NCBI GenBank assembly: GCA_021740905.1
Contig: JAIOYV010000067.1
Span: 1 to 36,975, forward strand
Direction: 5' to 3'
Source: Bacteroidales bacterium
Lineage (GTDB): Bacteria; Bacteroidota; Bacteroidia; Bacteroidales; M50B96
DNA length: 36,975 nt
Below are positions 6,494-27,571 of the stretch, piece after piece. The position numbers and the translations under genes were made by a program. Each line of letters begins with the position of its first letter. Position 1 is the first letter of the stretch. The notes beneath the pieces are model-generated. The model did no database searches. It saw only the letters and a program-made list of their open reading frames with translations, and had not been told where the DNA came from.

Positions 6494-7507
6494 ATGATAA
6501 TAAATCGATTGTCATCAAAATGCAAGTTATGGGCGATTAGGTTATTGTCTCTTATCATTGTTCTGTTTGTTTGCAATTCGTGCAATATGGAGAAAAATGA
6601 GGGGATTAACTTCGAGGTAAACGAATGTAAAAGCCTGCCTTCATTACCACCAAATGTTGCATGGTGGAATGCTGTAAGTCCTGAGTTTTATTATAATTTC
6701 TGTTGTATTAGCCCTATGAATGAACGGTTAATAGCTTATTGCAGAGAAACAGTTGAAAATAATAGACAAGATTTAGTTGTTAGAAATCTTGATACTGATT
6801 TTCAATACACCATTGATATTGGGCATAGTATTATCGTATCAGAAATTGATTGGAGTACGAAGGATTATTTGGTTTTTATAAACTTGGACTGTCAAATTGT
6901 TACAGTAAAAAGCAATGGTGAGGATTTAAATACTTTACCCATCGAAGGAATATTTTACTCCGCCCATTGGAACAATGCCGGAAATAAAATAATTGCTGTT
7001 TTGTTTTATTCCACTGAATATCCTGGTAACCGTGTAGTGATAATGGATAAGGATGGAACGAATATGGAAATTTTTAAATTTGAGGAAAGTATGTATGATG
7101 GGCGCTTTGCATCAGACGATAGTGGTTTCATTTTCAAGGATTCGCCAAATGGTTGGGGTCTGACTCATTATGACCTTAAAACAAACACAATAGATTTCAA
7201 TCCATTATATGGTGAGAGTTTAGGTAGTTTTTCCTATGCCGTAAACCCAAAAGGTTCATCTGTTGTGATCTGTGAAAATTATGGATATATGTATCTTATG
7301 GACTTAATAACAAATGAATATACTTTACTTCGTGAAAGCTGTCGAACAAAAACATATTTCTCCCCTTCCTTCTCAAGTGATGGGAAAAGCCTGTTGGTTA
7401 GACGAAGACATACACAGGCTCTTAATAGCACTACCTTAGCAGGTGAGAGCCATCTATACATGATTGATTTGGAAACAGATTATGAAGAGCGGTTAAAGTT
7501 GGATTAA
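6494..7507 (+). CDS. Lipoprotein with TolB-like beta-propeller
   Basis: A 337-residue predicted lipoprotein. After a basic stretch (NRLSSKCKLW) comes a hydrophobic segment ending in a lipobox-like LFVCNSC followed by NMEKN, so the mature protein probably starts at that cysteine. The rest looks like a WD40/TolB-type propeller: repeated blades with motifs such as VIMDKDGTNMEIFKFEE, GRFASDDSGFIFKD and SPSFSSDGKSLLVRRRH, where the S(S)DG turn is typical of PD40 repeats. Such proteins usually bind partners rather than catalyse. The ATG at 6494 was chosen over 6458 because it gives a compact signal sequence. The gene stands alone; its codon use is more AT-rich than the mevalonate operon beyond it. 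Confidence 0.75.
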   Translation: MIINRLSSKCKLWAIRLLSLIIVLFVCNSCNMEKNEGINFEVNECKSLPSLPPNVAWWNAVSPEFYYNFCCISPMNERLIAYCRETVENNRQDLVVRNLDTDFQYTIDIGHSIIVSEIDWSTKDYLVFINLDCQIVTVKSNGEDLNTLPIEGIFYSAHWNNAGNKIIAVLFYSTEYPGNRVVIMDKDGTNMEIFKFEESMYDGRFASDDSGFIFKDSPNGWGLTHYDLKTNTIDFNPLYGESLGSFSYAVNPKGSSVVICENYGYMYLMDLITNEYTLLRESCRTKTYFSPSFSSDGKSLLVRRRHTQALNSTTLAGESHLYMIDLETDYEERLKLD

Positions 7508-7658: not shown

Positions 7659-8633
7659 TCAACTCCGATACGATTGAAACACCGGGATCACCTCGTAGTT
7701 TTGAGCTTCCAGGTCTTTTTTGGCTTGCTCGAAATTGGCACTGAAACCGAGGATGAAGCCACCCCCGCCTGAGCCACAGAGTTTCAGGTAGTAGCTGGCA
7801 GTTTCAATGCCTTTTTGCCAAAGGCCCTTGAAAGGCTCGGGGATCATGCGCTCCATATATTTTAATTGAAAACGGGACAGCTCTTTCAGATGAGCAAAAA
7901 ACTCGTCGATGTCGCCCTGCACCAGCGAGTTGATGCAATTGTCGGTGAGGGGGATCATCGTGTTTTTTACTTCCCGGGCAAAGGCAATTTCGTTCTTCAC
8001 CTTGTCGATGAAATAGTTCACCAATGGGCCTGTTTTCCGGGGTTTTCCGGTGTTGATCAAAAAAATGGCACCATCGCCAAATTTCTTCTTGCGAGGCAGG
8101 CCCACTATTTTTATATCCGATTTTGCATTGATAAGCAAGGGCATTTTAATGTAGCTGTTCAAGGGGTCGATGCCCGAACTGGTGCCATGAAAAAAGGATT
8201 CGAGCTGCGAAAAAATATTTTTCAGCTTTAGGATTTGCTTCTTGCCAATTCTCCGAAGGTTTGTGATTTTTTCTGAAGCGTACCGGTCGTAAACGGCTGC
8301 CACAAGTGCCCCCGAGCTTCCCAGCCCAAAACCTTGCGGTATGGACGATTCGAAAAACAGTCCCCTTTCAATATCTTTTTTGAATTCATCAATATTGAAA
8401 TCGCAAAGCAATTTACCGTCCTCAATCAATTTGTCAATGTAAGTGGCAAATTCCACCAACATACGGTTCGATTCGTTAGCAAAGGTAAGGTCGGTGTATC
8501 TATTTTTGTTTATAAAATCTAGCTCCCCTTTAAAATGGCTGTAGGGCACACTTAATCCCTTCGAGTCGTAGATCACACTGTACTCCCCGAAAAGGAGGAT
8601 TTTGGCATAATATAGTTCGTTCTTGTTTATCAT
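7659..8633 (-). CDS. mvk: Mevalonate kinase (GHMP family)
   Basis: A 324-residue cytoplasmic kinase predicted to phosphorylate mevalonate with ATP to 5-phosphomevalonate. GHMP features are in order: AKILLFGEYSVIYD near the N-terminus (substrate-binding start motif), the ATP-binding motif PQGFGLGSSGALVAA near residue 100, HGTSSGIDPLNSY near 155-170 with the Asp expected to be the catalytic base of mevalonate kinases, and C-terminal KLCGSGGGGFILGF (GHMP motif 3). It is the last gene of the minus-strand mevalonate operon, starting 13 nt after the mvaD stop. Assignment as mevalonate kinase rather than phosphomevalonate kinase rests on the S-G-I-D motif and on the companion GHMP genes. Some substrate uncertainty remains. 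Confidence 0.85.
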   Translation of the reverse strand: MINKNELYYAKILLFGEYSVIYDSKGLSVPYSHFKGELDFINKNRYTDLTFANESNRMLVEFATYIDKLIEDGKLLCDFNIDEFKKDIERGLFFESSIPQGFGLGSSGALVAAVYDRYASEKITNLRRIGKKQILKLKNIFSQLESFFHGTSSGIDPLNSYIKMPLLINAKSDIKIVGLPRKKKFGDGAIFLINTGKPRKTGPLVNYFIDKVKNEIAFAREVKNTMIPLTDNCINSLVQGDIDEFFAHLKELSRFQLKYMERMIPEPFKGLWQKGIETASYYLKLCGSGGGGFILGFSANFEQAKKDLEAQNYEVIPVFQSYRS

Positions 8634-8646
8634 CGTTAATCTATAA

Positions 8647-9750
8647 TCATTTTAATATTTCCTTTGGCCCGTTTCCCACTTCATCATTCAACAAAAGAAG
8701 ATTTTTATTTTTACATATGATTTCGTTTTTAAGAAAATCAGTTACTTCTTTTTTCGCACTGGCGGGGTATAGTACATGGATGTTTGGTCCCGCGTCGAGG
8801 GTAAAGCAAACCGGGATATTTGTATCTAATCTGAAATCCTTTATTTTTTGAATAGGCTTCAAGGTTTCGGGCTTCATCAAAAAATAGCCGGGTTTCGAAC
8901 TCATCATCAGGGCATGCAAACTCAGGGCTTCGTGTTCAACTACTTCGGCAAACTGCATCAGGTTGCCAGTTTCAAGGGCCTTGGTCAACATTAAATAGTT
9001 GGACCGTGCCTGGGCATAGCGCGCCTGGGCATAAGGATGGTCGATCATGGCGATATGGCCCATGGTGCTCGAAACTTCCTTTTTCTCTTGGCTTACCAGG
9101 ATAATAGTGTCCTGAAAATCGTTGTACACCTCATGTACCGGCAGCGAAAAGGGATCGGCAAAATGATCGGAAGAGCCACCTTCCCATTCCACCCTGCCCC
9201 AGTTTACGAACCCACCAAAAACCGAACGGGCCGCGCTTCCCGAACCCAGCCTGGCCACATACGATGCTTTTCTGAAAAAATCATCGGGGTGCTTTAAATG
9301 GCCAAATTCGTTGCGCTCAATGGAGCAAAGGCATAAGGCCAGTGCGCTTAAACCCGATGCCGACGATGCAATGCCAGAGGAATGGGGGAAGGTATTGGTA
9401 CTGTTGATCTTCAATTCCAATTGGTCGAGAAAAGGAAAAATAGGCCTTATGTTTTCGAAGAAGGTTTCAAGCTTGAATCGAAAGGCCGTTTCTTTCACAC
9501 CATCGAAAAAGAATTCAAATACAAGGCCCTTCTCTTGTGAAGTTTTATATTCAACAGTCGTTCGGCTGAAGGCATTTTTCAGGCTAAAACTCAGCGAAGG
9601 GTTCATGGGCATCTGCTTGCCATGCTTGCCCCAGTATTTTATCAGGGCAATGTTCGATGGACTTTCCCAAGCAACTGATTTTTCAATATTGGCCGAATCG
9701 GGCAGCCGAAGGTTTGGGTTGTCATAGCTTTGGTCTGTGTATATTATCAT
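8647..9750 (-). CDS. mvaD: Diphosphomevalonate decarboxylase
   Basis: A 367-residue GHMP enzyme that converts 5-diphosphomevalonate, ATP-dependently, to isopentenyl diphosphate, CO2, ADP and phosphate. Key motifs are canonical: ESPSNIALIKYWGKHG (about 29-44) with the conserved Lys-Tyr-Trp, the P-loop HSSGIASSASGLSALAL, GSGSAARSVFGGFVNW, and FTLDAGPNIHVLYP near the C-terminus containing the catalytic Asp. This argues for a true diphosphate decarboxylase rather than the archaeal-type phosphomevalonate decarboxylases. Its ATG overlaps the stop of the upstream GHMP kinase (ATGA at 9750-9747), indicating translational coupling. The length is slightly above bacterial MvaD (about 325-340), with an N-terminal extension of about 25 residues. 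Confidence 0.93.
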   Translation of the reverse strand: MIIYTDQSYDNPNLRLPDSANIEKSVAWESPSNIALIKYWGKHGKQMPMNPSLSFSLKNAFSRTTVEYKTSQEKGLVFEFFFDGVKETAFRFKLETFFENIRPIFPFLDQLELKINSTNTFPHSSGIASSASGLSALALCLCSIERNEFGHLKHPDDFFRKASYVARLGSGSAARSVFGGFVNWGRVEWEGGSSDHFADPFSLPVHEVYNDFQDTIILVSQEKKEVSSTMGHIAMIDHPYAQARYAQARSNYLMLTKALETGNLMQFAEVVEHEALSLHALMMSSKPGYFLMKPETLKPIQKIKDFRLDTNIPVCFTLDAGPNIHVLYPASAKKEVTDFLKNEIICKNKNLLLLNDEVGNGPKEILK

Positions 9751-10691
9751 ACTTTGGCCTCCTTCAAAATATTTATTTCGTTAAAATTGATGAGCGTCTT
9801 CAACCCTTTCTTTCCAAAATATTGCAGAATCCGTTCTCTGTCAAGATGGCTGGATACAAGGGCAAAGTCGCCGCCCCAGGCTCCCAGCGATTTTATCTCG
9901 CCGTCGAAAGAAGAGAAAAATTCATCTTTTATAGTTCTCTTGTTTAAAACCGACGAAAGGATCGACTCATGTTCCTGTACAAGATAGTTAAAACCTTTCA
10001 GATTTCCGGCATTTAAAATCTCTTTGCTGATTTCCGATACTGCACTTATTTCGCTTGCGAAATCTTCCTTTTTTTGAAGAAAATCACGAACAGATTTTGA
10101 CGACTCCTGTTTTTTTCCAAGGTATAAGAAATAGATGGAATCTTGATATTCGGGGTCAAAATCTACTTCTTCTACCAATGGTTTAGAATCTTCAAGTTTA
10201 AATAATATCGGTGATTGACTCCGGGCACACGCTACATCGTAACCCGAACCATTTGATATTGCAAAGTGATGTTCGAAGGGGTCGATGTCGGCGAGCCAGG
10301 CGATATTTGATAAAAGGCTACTGCTGCTACCAAGACCCCAGTTAATATCGAAATCTATTTTTGTGGTGATTTTCTTCCCGGTCAGTTTTTCTTTGAAAGA
10401 GGGATTGATTTGTTGTGCCGCTTTCAGGATTTTAATCAGCGAGACCGCAATGTCCTCCTTGTTTGTTTCCAATACTGTCCAATCCGATAAATTAATTTTT
10501 GCATCAAACCAATTGTTATCAAGCATCTGGGTTTCCCACAACAAGACATGGCCGTCGTTGTGTTCGAGCATCTCCATCGATTGCCCATATCTCACAGGCA
10601 TCGCCAGCGACAAAGCACCCTTCAGAATAAGGTACTCTCCGGTAATTAGCAATTTGCCGTTGGAGTAATGATATGTGGGTTTGTGGATCAC
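9747..10691 (-). CDS. GYDIA-family GHMP kinase, candidate phosphomevalonate kinase
   Basis: A 314-residue GHMP kinase of the Bacteroidota GYDIA family. It has YSNGKLLITGEYLILKGA at residues 9-26, which resembles the phosphomevalonate kinase start motif (PGKLLxxGEY). It also has the ATP loop NWGLGSSSSLLSNIAWLA (about 136-153) and ISNGSGYDVACARSQSP (about 165-181), the family-naming motif. In ERG8-type phosphomevalonate kinases the corresponding motif is, from memory, G-S-G-F-D-V. The gene sits between mvaA (42 nt upstream) and mvaD (ATGA overlap), in a pathway operon with no other gene for the phosphomevalonate to diphosphomevalonate step. The kinase role is seen in sequence; the exact substrate is inferred. 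Confidence 0.85.
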   Translation of the reverse strand: MIHKPTYHYSNGKLLITGEYLILKGALSLAMPVRYGQSMEMLEHNDGHVLLWETQMLDNNWFDAKINLSDWTVLETNKEDIAVSLIKILKAAQQINPSFKEKLTGKKITTKIDFDINWGLGSSSSLLSNIAWLADIDPFEHHFAISNGSGYDVACARSQSPILFKLEDSKPLVEEVDFDPEYQDSIYFLYLGKKQESSKSVRDFLQKKEDFASEISAVSEISKEILNAGNLKGFNYLVQEHESILSSVLNKRTIKDEFFSSFDGEIKSLGAWGGDFALVSSHLDRERILQYFGKKGLKTLINFNEINILKEAKV

Positions 10692-10733
10692 AATGGGTTT
10701 TGGTATAACTGTGTATTAATTTCCAACTCGTCT

Positions 10734-12074
10734 TTATTTCAGCACTTCGACTCTTACAGAGTTCAAGTATTCCTGCACTGCCCTAAAACTCACTTTGTGT
10801 TCAGTGAAATGTTCGATGGCATGCTTTTTCTCCTTATCGGTGGCCTCCATTTGGTTAAGGATATTCATCAGGTGCATTTTCATGTGCCCTTTCTGGATGC
10901 CTTTGGTGACAAGTGATTTCAATGCCCCAAAATTATTGGCAAGCCCAACTGTTGCCGTAATCCGCATTAGGTTGTGCGCCGTGGGATTGTTCAACATTTC
11001 GAGCGATCGTTTGGCCATGGGGTGGAGCGATGTGAGCCCGCCAACGGTGCCCATTGCCAACGGTACGGTGAGAGTATATTTGAATTTTCCGTCTTTTAGT
11101 TCCAATTCGGTGAGGCTGCTGTACTTCCCACTCCGCGAGGCATACGTATGCCCACAGGCTTCGATGGCTCGAAAATCGTTTCCGGTTGCCAGGGCCACTG
11201 CATCGATACCATTAAAAATCCCTTTGTTGTGGGTGGTGGCACGGTGTGGGTCTATCTGGGCGATTTTAACAGCATGGTCAAATTTCCAAACAAACTCTTC
11301 TGCGCTCATGTCGTCATCAATGGTTCCCAGTTCCTCAATGTCGCATTCTACCCACGATTTAACCACACAATCGGGAGTGTAGTTCGACAAGATCGACATG
11401 ATAATCCGGCAATCTTTTTCTCCGTTCACGAAACCTGGTTCCTGCAAAAAGAAAGTGCGGGTAATCTGTGCAAATTCTTCGAGGCATGAATTGATGAAAT
11501 TGGCCCCCATCGAATCGACCGTTTCAAATTCGGCCTTCAATTGGTAGTAATCTGCAATTTCGTGGCGCATGTCAACCAGTTCGATGTCGAGGATGCCCCC
11601 GCCACGGTTTTCCATGTTGGATGTAATTTCTGCAGTGCCTTCAAAAAGCCTGGTCTTCAATAGTGGAAACAGGGCCTTCAATTTAGAATTATCGCCGTGC
11701 CAGATAAAATGCACCTGGCCAATTTTTTTGGTTGAAACAATCTCGGTGTGAAAGCCTCCCCGCGAAGCCCACCATTTAGCGGCATTCGAGGCGGCGGCAA
11801 TCACCGAGCTTTCCTCAATTACCATGGGGATGATATAATTTTTGTTATCGATCACAAAATTTGGGGCAACACCATAAGGGATGAAATAGTTCGAGATGGT
11901 GTTTTCGCTAAATTCGTCGAACTTAAGCTGGGTCTGATCGTCGCTATGCCAATAGCTTTTCATCTCGGCCACAAACGCTTGGGGCGATTTTTGCACCGCA
12001 CTGATAAGTTCTAATTTTTCGTCTTTCGACAATCTTGAAAAACCTGTTACAATTTTTTTCTTTTCCATTTTCAC
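10734..12074 (-). CDS. mvaA: Hydroxymethylglutaryl-CoA reductase, class II
   Basis: A 446-residue soluble enzyme that reduces HMG-CoA to mevalonate, without the membrane anchor of eukaryotic class I enzymes. Recognisable parts: the substrate-binding MVIEESSVIAAASNAAKWW (Glu is the expected catalytic acid), the nucleotide-binding VDSMGANFINSCLE, THNKGIFNGIDAVALATGNDFRA supplying catalytic Lys and Asp, AMGTVGGLTSLHPMAKR, and the mobile flap GIQKGHMKMH with the catalytic His near residue 400. NADH versus NADPH preference cannot be read with confidence. It starts six nt after the fni stop, so the two are co-transcribed. A second ATG two codons in is possible. Confidence 0.95.
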   Translation of the reverse strand: MKMEKKKIVTGFSRLSKDEKLELISAVQKSPQAFVAEMKSYWHSDDQTQLKFDEFSENTISNYFIPYGVAPNFVIDNKNYIIPMVIEESSVIAAASNAAKWWASRGGFHTEIVSTKKIGQVHFIWHGDNSKLKALFPLLKTRLFEGTAEITSNMENRGGGILDIELVDMRHEIADYYQLKAEFETVDSMGANFINSCLEEFAQITRTFFLQEPGFVNGEKDCRIIMSILSNYTPDCVVKSWVECDIEELGTIDDDMSAEEFVWKFDHAVKIAQIDPHRATTHNKGIFNGIDAVALATGNDFRAIEACGHTYASRSGKYSSLTELELKDGKFKYTLTVPLAMGTVGGLTSLHPMAKRSLEMLNNPTAHNLMRITATVGLANNFGALKSLVTKGIQKGHMKMHLMNILNQMEATDKEKKHAIEHFTEHKVSFRAVQEYLNSVRVEVLK

Positions 12075-12080
12075 TTTTTT

Positions 12081-13073
12081 CTATCGGATGCTCAAATAGC
12101 TTTGGGCCAATTGAAGCCCTTCAATCTGGTTCTTTATATAACTTTGAAGGCTTACGTAATCTTCGCGGGCATGTTTTAAAAATGCCGATGCCTGCCCGTA
12201 AACAGCCGGGAGTTTTACTTTATTTATCAGGTGAAAACCATCGAGGTAATCCTGTACACCTCCCGATACAATAATGTTTTTACACTTTGGTTCAGGGCTT
12301 TGTTCAATGGCCTGGTTCACAAATTCCACCATATCTGCAGCTGTGTGGCCAATTTTTGCAAAGGGGGCAAACAATTCAGCTTGCTCCTCGTTGCCACGCA
12401 TCAACTCTAGTTTGGCAAAATTGGTCCCGCCAAATGCCCCAAATTCGATGGCTGCCAAGGGAAGCTGCAAAAGTTCTTTGATCGATTCCGGACCAAAGCC
12501 CTGACCTACTTCTTTCACTATAACCGGAAAGTTGAAATCTTCTAAAAACCGATTAATGGTTTCAAGAGGTGGATATTTCAATCGGTCGCCTTCGGGTTGA
12601 AACCACTCCTGCAAAGGGTTTACATGGACGATGAGGCCATCGGCACGTAAAAGTTCGACAAGCTCACTTGCCGAGCGGGCTTTGCTGTTTTCGAGGGATA
12701 GCTCAATCTGGGCAATTCCGAGATTGGCATAAAAGGGTAGGTCATCGCCAATGATATCCCGCATGTCGAAATCGGGCAGATACTTTTTGTCTTCCAGTAA
12801 AATACGACAAGAACCCAGGCCCATGCCAAAACCAAATTCGTGGCAAGCTTTGGCAAGATTGGTATTGATTGTCCGGGCCAGTTTGGTCCCACCCGTCATG
12901 CTCGACACCCACAAAGGATGGCGGATATTTTTCCCAAGAAACGAAAAGGGCTTGTTTTCACCGGAAGGATGGCTTGCCAGGAAAGGTTCGTAATAAAAAC
13001 GTCCGTCCTGTTCCGCTGCCTCAACCCGCGATTGAAACGCCATTTCGATATGGTCTTTTTTCCTGTCGTCCAT
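12081..13073 (-). CDS. fni: Type 2 isopentenyl-diphosphate delta-isomerase
   Basis: A 330-residue FMN-dependent TIM-barrel enzyme that interconverts IPP and DMAPP and needs reduced flavin and Mg2+. Type 2 hallmarks: N-terminal RKKDHIEMA, PLWVSSMTGGTKLARTIN (phosphate/FMN site), GMGLGSCRILLED, HVNPLQEWFQPEGDR (Gln and Glu of the active site), PVIVKEVGQGFGPESIKELL, and IIVSGGVQDYLDGF. The last is where family members usually have a Gly-rich FMN-phosphate loop of the SGGIRxGxD type, so the pattern is slightly divergent here. It is the first gene of the mevalonate operon, and a promoter lies 54-83 nt upstream. It is unrelated to the Nudix type 1 enzyme. Confidence 0.94.
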   Translation of the reverse strand: MDDRKKDHIEMAFQSRVEAAEQDGRFYYEPFLASHPSGENKPFSFLGKNIRHPLWVSSMTGGTKLARTINTNLAKACHEFGFGMGLGSCRILLEDKKYLPDFDMRDIIGDDLPFYANLGIAQIELSLENSKARSASELVELLRADGLIVHVNPLQEWFQPEGDRLKYPPLETINRFLEDFNFPVIVKEVGQGFGPESIKELLQLPLAAIEFGAFGGTNFAKLELMRGNEEQAELFAPFAKIGHTAADMVEFVNQAIEQSPEPKCKNIIVSGGVQDYLDGFHLINKVKLPAVYGQASAFLKHAREDYVSLQSYIKNQIEGLQLAQSYLSIR

Positions 13074-14926: not shown

Positions 14927-16819
14927 ATGAAAAAAATATATTTACTCCTTTTCCTTTCCTGTGGCATTTCTGGCGCAGGTTTTTCTCAAACACCCCCTTG
15001 GTATTTTATCAACACAGGGGTCGAAAATACTCATGTTATTTTGGTACAGGAAACAATACCCATGCTCCTCGACGGTCAACCTTTGCAGGTGGGCGATTAC
15101 ATTGGTGCATTTTATCAAATACTCGATACCCTAATTTGTGGAACGGGAACCGGAAATACAGGCGATGTGGGAGGATTGATGGTTATCAACTCCGTTTCGG
15201 CAGCTACAATATGGGGCGCTGAACCCAATGTGTCGAATGGGTTTCAGGTGGGCGAAGCATTTCAGTGGAAAATCTGGAGAGCCTCCGATGGTAGCGTGTT
15301 CAATGCCACTGTAGAATACGATCTTAATACTCCTAATATTACCGATTCGGGTTATTATGTTACCAATGGCATTAGTAAAATGGCCTCGCTCACTGCTTAT
15401 AGTATTCCCGGTATCGACCTTAGCGTGAACCAGCAATTATCGCCCATTTCGGGTTGTGGATCGCTTCAAGACCAAGCGGTTGTTGTATTGTTGGAAAACC
15501 ACGACACCCTAGATGTTATTGGGTTTAGTGTAAATTTTACACTGAATAATGGGGATACGATTACCGAATTTGTGAACGATACCATTTTTGCCGGGGCAAC
15601 CTACGAGTACACTTTCAACCAGCTTGTAAGCCTGTTAAACCTTGGGGATTATTTCTTCCACGTTTGGATCAATTTTCCGGGCGATGTGAATTATACCAAC
15701 GATTTCAACAAGCAAAAAGTGACCATTTCTAATTTTCCGGTAGTCGACCTGGGAGATGATGTGTCGATTTGCGAGGGCGAAACTGCACTATTGCAGACCG
15801 ACACTTTTTTTGCCGGGTATTCGTGGAACACAGGTTCGAATATGCAGTTTCTATATGCAAGCGCTGAGGGCTATTATTATTGTACCATTACCGACCACCT
15901 GGGCTGTCAGGGATTCGATTCGGTGCATGTAACCGTATTGGCCCTTCCTCAATTCGACTTGCCCGATACCGTGAGATTTTGTGAGGGCTTACATAAAACG
16001 GTGACCATTGAGGGCACTTTTGAATCGTACCACTGGAGCAATGGCATTACCACCCCCAGCCTGTATATTTCAATCCCCAATATGTATAGCGTTACGGTGA
16101 CCGATTCTGTCGGATGCTCATCGGTTGATTCGTTGATTGCTATTGCAACCACTCTACCTCAGATTGATTTGCCCGATGTTGTAAAAATTTGTGAGGGCTT
16201 ATCCACAAATGTGACCATTGAGGGAAGTTTTGAATCGTACGTTTGGAGCAATGGTGATACAAGCCCCGAATTGAATATTACGATCCCTGATTTATATAGT
16301 GTTACGGTGACAGATATTGCCGGATGTACATCGGTTGGCACATTGGTTGCCGAATTAATTGTTATCCCGCCCATCGATTTGGGAGATACCATTTATTCTG
16401 ATAAGCTGGATACCATTTCCTTAGATGCAGGCGTAGCCTTCTATTCTTATTTATGGAACACGGGTGGGATAAACCGCGTTTTAACCCCAACTGAATATGG
16501 GGAATATTCTGTTACGGTAAGCGATGGCGATTGCGAAGGGGTAGGATCGGTTTGGGTGAAACAGGACACTGTAAAATATTTTAGGCAATTGATTGTTTGG
16601 CCCAACCCAAGCAATGGTTTGTTGACATTTTACCTGCCCAAAACCGAAACTATTTCGATTGAAGTGTACAATGTCCTAGGCCAGCAACTTATTTCGGATG
16701 AGATAGAAGCAGATAACATAATAGAATACGATGTCCGCCATCTTCGGTCGGGGCCTTACATTTTAGTAGTGAAAACAGACGATCGGAAATTTACAAAGCG
16801 ATTGATCATTACAAAGTAA
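14927..16819 (+). CDS. T9SS-sorted protein: shared domain plus four Ig/PKD-like repeats
   Basis: A 630-residue secreted protein. Signal peptide 1-21 (ends GAGFSQ). The shared domain follows at about 22-165: FINTGVENTHVILVQ, GDYIGAFYQ, GEAFQWKIWRASDGSVFNA, YYVTNGISKMASL. Next comes a CARDB-like segment, about 165-280, with a QDQAVVVLLENHDT core. Then there are four repeats of about 75 residues (about 280-550) with the pattern ICEG...W(N/S)(T/N)G...YSVTVTD..GC. Residues 555-630 are a T9SS type A sorting domain (VWPNPSNGLLTFYLP, VYNVLGQQLISDE, LRSGPYILVV). Repeats 2 and 3 are the most alike, also at DNA level, indicating recent duplication. Likely a surface structural or adhesive protein; no catalytic motif is seen. 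Confidence 0.85.
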   Translation: MKKIYLLLFLSCGISGAGFSQTPPWYFINTGVENTHVILVQETIPMLLDGQPLQVGDYIGAFYQILDTLICGTGTGNTGDVGGLMVINSVSAATIWGAEPNVSNGFQVGEAFQWKIWRASDGSVFNATVEYDLNTPNITDSGYYVTNGISKMASLTAYSIPGIDLSVNQQLSPISGCGSLQDQAVVVLLENHDTLDVIGFSVNFTLNNGDTITEFVNDTIFAGATYEYTFNQLVSLLNLGDYFFHVWINFPGDVNYTNDFNKQKVTISNFPVVDLGDDVSICEGETALLQTDTFFAGYSWNTGSNMQFLYASAEGYYYCTITDHLGCQGFDSVHVTVLALPQFDLPDTVRFCEGLHKTVTIEGTFESYHWSNGITTPSLYISIPNMYSVTVTDSVGCSSVDSLIAIATTLPQIDLPDVVKICEGLSTNVTIEGSFESYVWSNGDTSPELNITIPDLYSVTVTDIAGCTSVGTLVAELIVIPPIDLGDTIYSDKLDTISLDAGVAFYSYLWNTGGINRVLTPTEYGEYSVTVSDGDCEGVGSVWVKQDTVKYFRQLIVWPNPSNGLLTFYLPKTETISIEVYNVLGQQLISDEIEADNIIEYDVRHLRSGPYILVVKTDDRKFTKRLIITK

Positions 16820-25060: not shown

Positions 25061-25252
25061 ATGGAAAGAGAACCGAAAACAAACAGAATTGTACTCATCG
25101 TACTTATCATCTTAAATGGGATTGTTTTATTGGGGCAGGTATGGCCGGAAGGTGCACCTCCTTTTGCAAGGATCGTGAATATTATATTTCTGATATTTAG
25201 TATGGTATTCTTTCTGTCGTTTTTTAGGAAGAAAAATAAATCTGAGGACTAA
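25061..25252 (+). CDS. Small two-helix membrane protein
   Basis: A 63-residue protein with a charged N-terminus (MEREPKTNR) and two hydrophobic helices, about 10-27 (IVLIVLIILNGIVLLGQV) and 37-55 (IVNIIFLIFSMVFFLSFF). A short W-P-E-G-A-P-P loop joins them and a basic tail (RKKNKSED) follows. It belongs to no family I know. It follows the GNAT gene by 18 nt. A decayed second copy lies at 27425-27571, so the sequence was a real gene under selection at the time of duplication. Confidence 0.65.
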   Translation: MEREPKTNRIVLIVLIILNGIVLLGQVWPEGAPPFARIVNIIFLIFSMVFFLSFFRKKNKSED

Positions 25253-27424: not shown

Positions 27425-27571
27425 CTTTGCTCCTTTATAATTGAAGCCATGCTTGTTTTACTGGGGCAAGTATGACCGGAAGGTGCACCCTCTTTTGCCA
27501 GGATCGTGAATATTGTGTTTCTGGTTTTGAGTTTGCTATTCTTCTTTTGCTTAAGTTTACATCAAAAATGA
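27425..27571 (+). pseudogene. Decayed second copy of the 63-residue membrane protein gene
   Basis: The DNA from about 27453 is about 80% identical over roughly 95 nt to 25123-25217. The frame reads FIIEAMLVLLGQV, then a stop (TGA at 27473-27475, where the intact copy has TGG for Trp), then PEGAPSFARIVNIVFLVLSLLFFF, ending with TGA at 27569-27571. The N-terminal codons and start are not recognisable. The copy directly precedes the DUF5995 gene at 27578. It shows a duplication that flanks the TM2-M48 block. Confidence 0.8.

Follow-up and report, generated by a model that had tools for sequence, protein, structure and literature searches.

A GYDIA-family GHMP kinase as the probable phosphomevalonate kinase of mevalonate operons in Bacteroidota

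Two non-orthologous forms of phosphomevalonate kinase (PMK), the ERG8-like and the animal one, are distinguished in the available part of PMC13412983. In the Flavobacteriaceae a PMK is seemingly missing and a nonorthologous GHMP kinase could perform this step, as stated in the accessible portion of PMC4026382, which names homoserine kinase and galactokinase genes in that context. One of the known enzymes near the protein considered here is the bacterial PMK (TIGR01220; PDB entries 3gon and 1k47, with 3k17 as a Listeria relative), with which it has the GHMP fold in common. The animal-type PMK belongs to another fold. For Flavobacterium johnsoniae, Hayakawa et al. (BBRC, 2017) reportedly described a general mevalonate (MVA) pathway with kinases distantly related to known enzymes. 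The NCBIfam family NF040656, a hypothetical equivalog, is described in its entry only as 'GYDIA family GHMP kinase', with no reaction named.

A member of this family is encoded in the window, i.e. the whole stretch of 36,975 nucleotides that was analysed. Its gene is the third of a five-gene run on the minus strand, fni-HMGR-GYDIA-mvaD-mvk, in which the genes are separated by 6, 42, -4 and 13 nt. The features of this run are:

12081..13073, minus strand: type 2 isopentenyl-diphosphate isomerase (fni), which opens the run, 6 nt to HMGR (TIGR02151, 198.5 bits, below cut-off)
10734..12074, minus strand: HMG-CoA reductase (HMGR) (TIGR00532, 264 bits)
9747..10691, minus strand: GYDIA-family GHMP kinase, proposed PMK (open reading frame; NF040656, 331.4 bits; AlphaFold2 model with the GHMP fold, mean pLDDT 94.9)
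9747..9750, minus strand: ATGA overlap of 4 nt between the GYDIA stop and the mvaD start
8647..9750, minus strand: mvaD, diphosphomevalonate decarboxylase with MDD-type substrate residues (TIGR01240, 178.9 bits; equivalents of Y18, K21, S139, S141 and S192)
7659..8633, minus strand: divergent mevalonate kinase (MVK), called MVKb, 324 aa (TIGR00549, 72.8 bits, below cut-off; hhalign score of 144.7 with the MVK set and 71.0 with the PMK set)

The GYDIA open reading frame (314 aa, GTG start, TGA stop) is a member of NF040656 (GHMP_GYDIA) well over the cut-off of 225, and its overlap with mvaD is real; the preliminary description of a GYDIA GHMP kinase coupled to mvaD within a mevalonate operon is thus confirmed. 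The same description counted four clear mevalonate genes beside it, which holds for HMGR and mvaD, both over their curated cut-offs (259.95 and 171.35 bits, respectively), but not for Fni and MVKb, both of which fall short of theirs (281.3 and 163.05 bits, respectively). On these scores, the mvk of the operon is a divergent family member. Searches with the GYDIA protein gave no Pfam match (E ≤ 0.001), and phmmer against the PDB sequences returned only four unrelated chains (E 0.53-1.4). Between window positions 7000 and 13700, a terminator scan yielded 6 candidates (7.7 expected) and a promoter scan 18 (11.7 expected, sd 3.8); no element from either scan entered the interpretation.

The distribution of the family was analysed in 198 Bacteroidota genomes, spread evenly over the phylum and with a completeness of ≥ 90%. 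GYDIA proteins over the cut-off were found in 26 of these (weak matches besides: 34.2 bits in genome G159 and 23.1 bits in G035), while mvaD (E ≤ 1e-20) was found in 28, namely exactly these 26 and, in addition, G066 and G159. The bacterial-type PMK model TIGR01220 (E ≤ 1e-6) found proteins in two of the 198 genomes, and these are again G066 and G159; both proteins are below its cut-off of 165.7 bits and score higher with this model than with TIGR00549 (147.6 vs 108.1 bits in G159 and 148.4 vs 96.9 bits in G066). GYDIA and a bacterial-type PMK occur together in none of the 28 mvaD genomes, i.e. the exclusion is complete in this sample. A Fisher test on the GYDIA and mvaD genome counts gave p = 1.6e-30, a value that serves only as a guide, because related genomes are not independent. 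Moreover, 25 of the 26 GYDIA genomes have no dxr, a gene of the MEP pathway, the sole exception being the genome of the window itself, and these 25 should therefore depend on mevalonate for isopentenyl diphosphate (IPP).

The two genomes with a bacterial-type PMK also resemble the window in the place of the kinase gene, since in both of them it sits between mvaD and HMGR. The order is HMGR-GYDIA-mvaD in the window and mvaD-PMK-HMGR in G159, where the reading order is reversed and the two neighbours are the same. G159 additionally has a clear MVK (247.3 bits, cut-off 163.05) fused to HMGR. This HMGR-mvk fusion is a single open frame (contig L067, 1039-3189, minus strand) adjoining the PMK-mvaD pair, and a 755-aa open frame of G066 with like matches may be of the same kind. 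The co-occurrence of GYDIA with mvaD, its exclusion with the bacterial-type PMK and the elimination of other kinases described below make it very probable that the GYDIA protein is the missing PMK, as the preliminary description had proposed; it is on this basis, and not on overall similarity, that we infer the reaction.

On a wider scale, a profile scan of genome contigs with a 21-sequence alignment revealed at least 587 confirmed GYDIA relatives, of which 80 were kept. The stretches from these 80 named contigs, many of which end early, contained HMGR in 70 cases, mvaD and MVKb in 29 each and fni in 19. Across the 26 GYDIA loci of the genome sample (of about 3.9 kb, own locus included) HMGR was present in 19, and in the same genomes MVKb was found in the neighbourhood of mvaD in 19 cases. 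Of the 26 GYDIA genomes, no more than 10 had a recognizable HMG-CoA synthase (PF01154), and 15 of the 16 genomes without PF01154, to which that of the window belongs, also lack dxr; this synthase may be too divergent for PF01154, or another enzyme may make HMG-CoA. Three MAGs named Bacteriovoracaceae (L117, L119 and L135, the last cut at the edge) have a fni-HMGR-GYDIA-mvaD-mvk run, which would reflect either bins under a wrong name or a transfer from Bacteroidota to another group, and GYDIA was also found in a record named Limnohabitans (L145). Annotated GYDIA kinases occur in four records of Riemerella anatipestifer, each of about 100 kb and listed as a plasmid (H21-H24), and in the one of these that was looked at in detail (L156) the gene lies among housekeeping genes.

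The other GHMP kinases were surveyed with PF00288 (E ≤ 1). In the genome of the window seven places were matched. Five of them are galactokinase, IspE, MVKb, MvaD and GYDIA, and the other two are poor matches, to a 69-aa frame and to a large open frame that resembles a molybdenum hydroxylase. The preliminary description had suggested a search of the genome for another PMK, and none was found among GHMP-type PMKs. The simplest case is G029, a genome in one contig and without dxr, in which only three places were matched (MVKb, MvaD and GYDIA), leaving GYDIA as the only PF00288-detected GHMP kinase for the PMK step in a mevalonate-dependent genome. In G103 the same three proteins were accompanied by galactokinase and homoserine kinase. 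The search of Flavobacterium sp. SLB02, which has a single GYDIA and a single MVKb, gave these two additions as well and, besides them, an unassigned GHMP kinase. The latter (L168, 901-1839, minus strand) reaches no NCBIfam cut-off among the listed matches. The PF00288 matches of GYDIA itself were weak in these genomes (E 0.06-0.35; 0.03 in G103), and an equally divergent GHMP kinase could therefore be missed by such a survey.

It might also be argued that GYDIA is a side-path kinase or has a regulatory role linked to the MVA operon, with the PMK step performed by an unrecognised non-GHMP enzyme elsewhere. The animal-type PMK, with its different fold, provides a precedent, and its model PF04275 had no match in the 28 mvaD genomes; this silence is uninformative, because 14 control genomes were equally silent. 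The complete exclusion between GYDIA and the bacterial-type PMK in the sample, together with their common place between HMGR and mvaD, makes this the least probable of the explanations considered here, and a PMK role of GYDIA is preferred.

A second possibility is that no PMK is needed, IPP being formed through a phosphomevalonate decarboxylase and isopentenyl phosphate kinase (IPK), with GYDIA doing something else. According to the available text of PMC3857490, the substrate residues of diphosphomevalonate decarboxylases are Tyr18, Lys21, Ser139, Ser141 and Ser192 in S. epidermidis numbering, and in the mevalonate-phosphate decarboxylases tabulated there the Lys is replaced by Leu, Met or Tyr. 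MvaD of the window and its relatives have the diphosphate-type residue at all five sites (29/29; a sixth site is gapped). In line with this, TIGR01240 outscores the phosphomevalonate decarboxylase model NF040704 on the window protein (178.9 vs 97.1 bits). On the other side, the best PDB match of this protein is 6n0x, deposited under the name diphosphomevalonate decarboxylase and presumably the phosphomevalonate (mevalonate-phosphate) decarboxylase of Anaerolinea, and the two have a His in common at a site occupied by Met in 6n0z and in the enzyme of S. aureus. At the Lys position, however, 6n0x has Asn. As for the IPK, sub-threshold matches were found in 27 of the 28 mvaD genomes, but equally in 14/14 controls (three of which were over the cut-off), and none of the 28 mvaD genomes had an IPK over the cut-off, although one scoring below it may be present. 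Such a route would, in addition, leave GYDIA without a task in 26/26 genomes, and we regard it as very unlikely. On balance, the decarboxylase evidence favours the classical diphosphate route, and hence the need for a PMK, which GYDIA would provide.

Overall sequence similarity was evaluated against annotated reference PMK, MVK and MVD proteins, taken from 7 plasmid records out of the 20 in which a PMK had been matched. The PMK set (n = 8) consisted of the plasmid-record PMKs and that of G159, the MVK set of 7 sequences and the MVKb set of 29 (30 were found and one, of 199 aa, was dropped by the length filter). In profile-profile comparisons with hhalign, GYDIA scored 72.2 with PMK, 57.2 with MVK and 101.0 with MVKb. 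The medians of single-sequence comparisons were level (37.4 with PMK, n = 8; 41.1 with MVK, n = 7; 40.6 with 12 of the 29 MVKb sequences), so that the ranking of the family profiles partly reflects profile depth, and the profile score was rejected as a means of telling PMK from MVK. Since galactokinase, homoserine kinase, IspE, the additional SLB02 kinase and decarboxylases scored lower (13.8-27.0, single-sequence hhalign), GYDIA is placed by these scores with the mevalonate/phosphomevalonate kinases, a grouping from which its substrate is not readable. MVKb scored 144.7 with the MVK profile and 71.0 with PMK (99.2 vs 35.3 as single-sequence medians) and, being clearly nearer MVK than PMK, is by this measure the MVK of the operon. 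With curated models, the only weak mevalonate-kinase match of the four GYDIA members scanned was TIGR00549 (20.6 bits for the window protein, far under the cut-off of 163.05); no PMK model matched any of the four at E ≤ 10, a limit at which HMMER filters drop most matches above ~0.1, and for the window protein neither TIGR01220 (cut-off 165.7) nor the ERG8 PMK model TIGR01219 (cut-off 376.95) was listed. A GYDIA profile run against the PDB sequences found the archaeal MVK 1kkh (4.3e-9) and no PMK.

GYDIA proteins have motif 1, a GLGSS-type motif 2, a Gly-rich motif 3 and the GHMP fold, and the two motifs on which an ERG8-type likeness had been claimed, SNGKLLITGEY and NGSGYDVA, are both present in the window protein. 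The GSxxD-x-A and K..G..GGD motifs of the bacterial PMK align with those of GYDIA (the middle-motif pattern of GYDIA matched only 49 of 81 sequences and was left out of the counts). The likeness stands for short motifs, but not for the whole sequence, which is equally far from PMK and MVK, nor for the GEY of motif 1. GEY is found in 8/8 PMKs, and GEH in 7/7 MVKs; as a PMK marker GEY was rejected, because 28 of the 29 MVKb proteins also have it. In motif 3, the residue following Gly-Gly is Asp in PMK (8/8) and GYDIA (81/81) and Gly in MVKb (29/29); the pattern fitted only one of the seven classical MVKs, in which this motif takes a different form. The C-terminal Gly-Gly-Asp thus leans GYDIA towards PMK. 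The resemblance to MVK (TIGR00549; archaeal 1kkh) consists of the fold, motif 1 and the weak profile match, and GYDIA differs in having no GGGG form of motif 3 and in being accompanied by a better MVK in its operon. GYDIA also differs from the bacterial PMK, being 44-56 aa shorter than the eight compared PMKs (314 vs 358-370 aa), having mostly AWGGD in place of AGGGD, and possessing invariant residues of its own (Trp52, Lys194 and Trp272 in 52 sequences). Asp152 is invariant in GYDIA and aligned with the catalytic Asp of GHMP mevalonate kinases; the roles of Lys13, Asp152, Lys194 and Asp275 are putative.

Comparison of folds had been proposed as one of the checks, and it did not decide the matter. 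The AlphaFold2 model of GYDIA (52 sequences) was aligned by VIA-align 2 best with 3k17 (Z 25.6, rmsd 3.7, 289 aligned residues) and 3gon, a phosphomevalonate-bound PMK of S. pneumoniae (Z 25.1, rmsd 3.4, 280 aligned), tied with the MVK 8tfo (Z 24.9, rmsd 3.4, 294 aligned) and followed by 1kkh (Z 23.7, rmsd 4.4, 292 aligned). Foldseek, ordered by E-value, placed MVKs first (that of L. major at the top), while 3k17 came sixth and 3gon fifteenth. The model of MVKb (mean pLDDT 87.1) likewise had 3k17 and 3gon on top (Z 20.2 and 19.9). The modelled fold of GYDIA is of the GHMP type, but PMK and MVK are not separated by the structure ranking, because MVKb too is headed by PMK structures; with rows within 1 Z tied and Foldseek MVK-first, the fold was rejected as a discriminator. 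The same applies to phylogeny. GYDIA forms one clade (support 99) on a long branch, a GYDIA+MVKb grouping appears with support of 76, and neither GYDIA+PMK (p-AU 0.391) nor GYDIA+MVK (p-AU 0.308) is rejected. GYDIA, PMK and MVKb are each starred clades in both trees, MVK in the second only (tree 1 sampled 20 of 81 GYDIA and 15 of 29 MVKb sequences, tree 2 sampled 12 and 10, respectively). The order of the four clades, with their long branches, is not resolved, and the tree was also set aside as a discriminator.

These results bear on a further explanation, in which the roles are swapped, GYDIA being the MVK and the 324-aa protein at 7659-8633 the PMK. Both are divergent GHMP kinases of one operon, the only weak mevalonate-kinase matches of GYDIA are to MVK, and MVKb has the PMK-like GEY and a structure list headed by PMKs. 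Nevertheless, MVKb is far nearer MVK than PMK in both hhalign comparisons and has the MVK-like SSGID and GGGG motif 3, as opposed to the PMK-like GGD of GYDIA, and in G159 the protein between mvaD and HMGR is a PMK while the clear MVK is fused to HMGR. We therefore consider an exchange of roles improbable, and retain GYDIA as the PMK.

In the proposed pathway, GYDIA would use ATP to convert (R)-5-phosphomevalonate, supplied by MVKb from the last gene of the operon, into 5-diphosphomevalonate, which MvaD, encoded by the overlapping gene, would decarboxylate to isopentenyl diphosphate for isomerisation by Fni. GYDIA would accordingly be a highly diverged line of PMKs within the GHMP superfamily, replacing the bacterial/ERG8-type PMK in most sampled MVA-bearing Bacteroidota. 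The genome of the window has both dxr (G000:C109:27619-28755) and ispE (L030) besides the mevalonate operon (window 7659-13073), and the operon may therefore not be essential there; the view that a PMK is required holds for the working of the operon, but not necessarily for the cell. Among 31 relatives (own genome included; 26 with completeness of ≥ 90%), GYDIA was found in 7, while dxr was matched in all 31 and was over the cut-off in 30. Judged from these gene contents, the mevalonate operon is a patchy second isoprenoid route within this order, which sets it apart from the 25 genomes that lack dxr. A more far-reaching and rather doubtful idea is that GYDIA is a third kind of PMK, which arose within Bacteroidota from an MVK-like ancestor, separately from the bacterial/ERG8 and animal types, has phosphate-binding residues of its own (a KKQ-S loop and AWGGD) and serves a patchy second pathway beside the native MEP pathway in the lineage of the window.

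The biochemistry of a GYDIA orthologue is probably already in print, given the 2017 work on F. johnsoniae kinases; Flavobacterium sp. SLB02 has one GYDIA and one MVKb in the GHMP search. If the F. johnsoniae PMK is a GYDIA protein, only the link to NF040656 and to the lineage of the window is new. In our literature search, GYDIA was not found named as a PMK, and the word itself led only to unrelated work on animal behaviour. Should the assignment be correct, an NCBIfam family whose only label is a sequence motif could be given the name PMK at no fewer than 587 places, 25 of the 26 sampled GYDIA genomes, those without dxr, gain a complete route to IPP, and the gap in Flavobacteriaceae, described as open in the available part of PMC4026382, is closed. 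A short PMK would also be on offer for pathway engineering, while ideas on the pathway itself would be unchanged.

Two repeats were observed elsewhere in the window. Positions 15917-16336 consist of two tandem units of 210 nt, 72% alike, inside a protein of 630 aa that carries a T9SS sorting domain, and a 91-nt direct repeat is present at 25122-25212 and 27453-27543 (86% identical, 2.3 kb apart).
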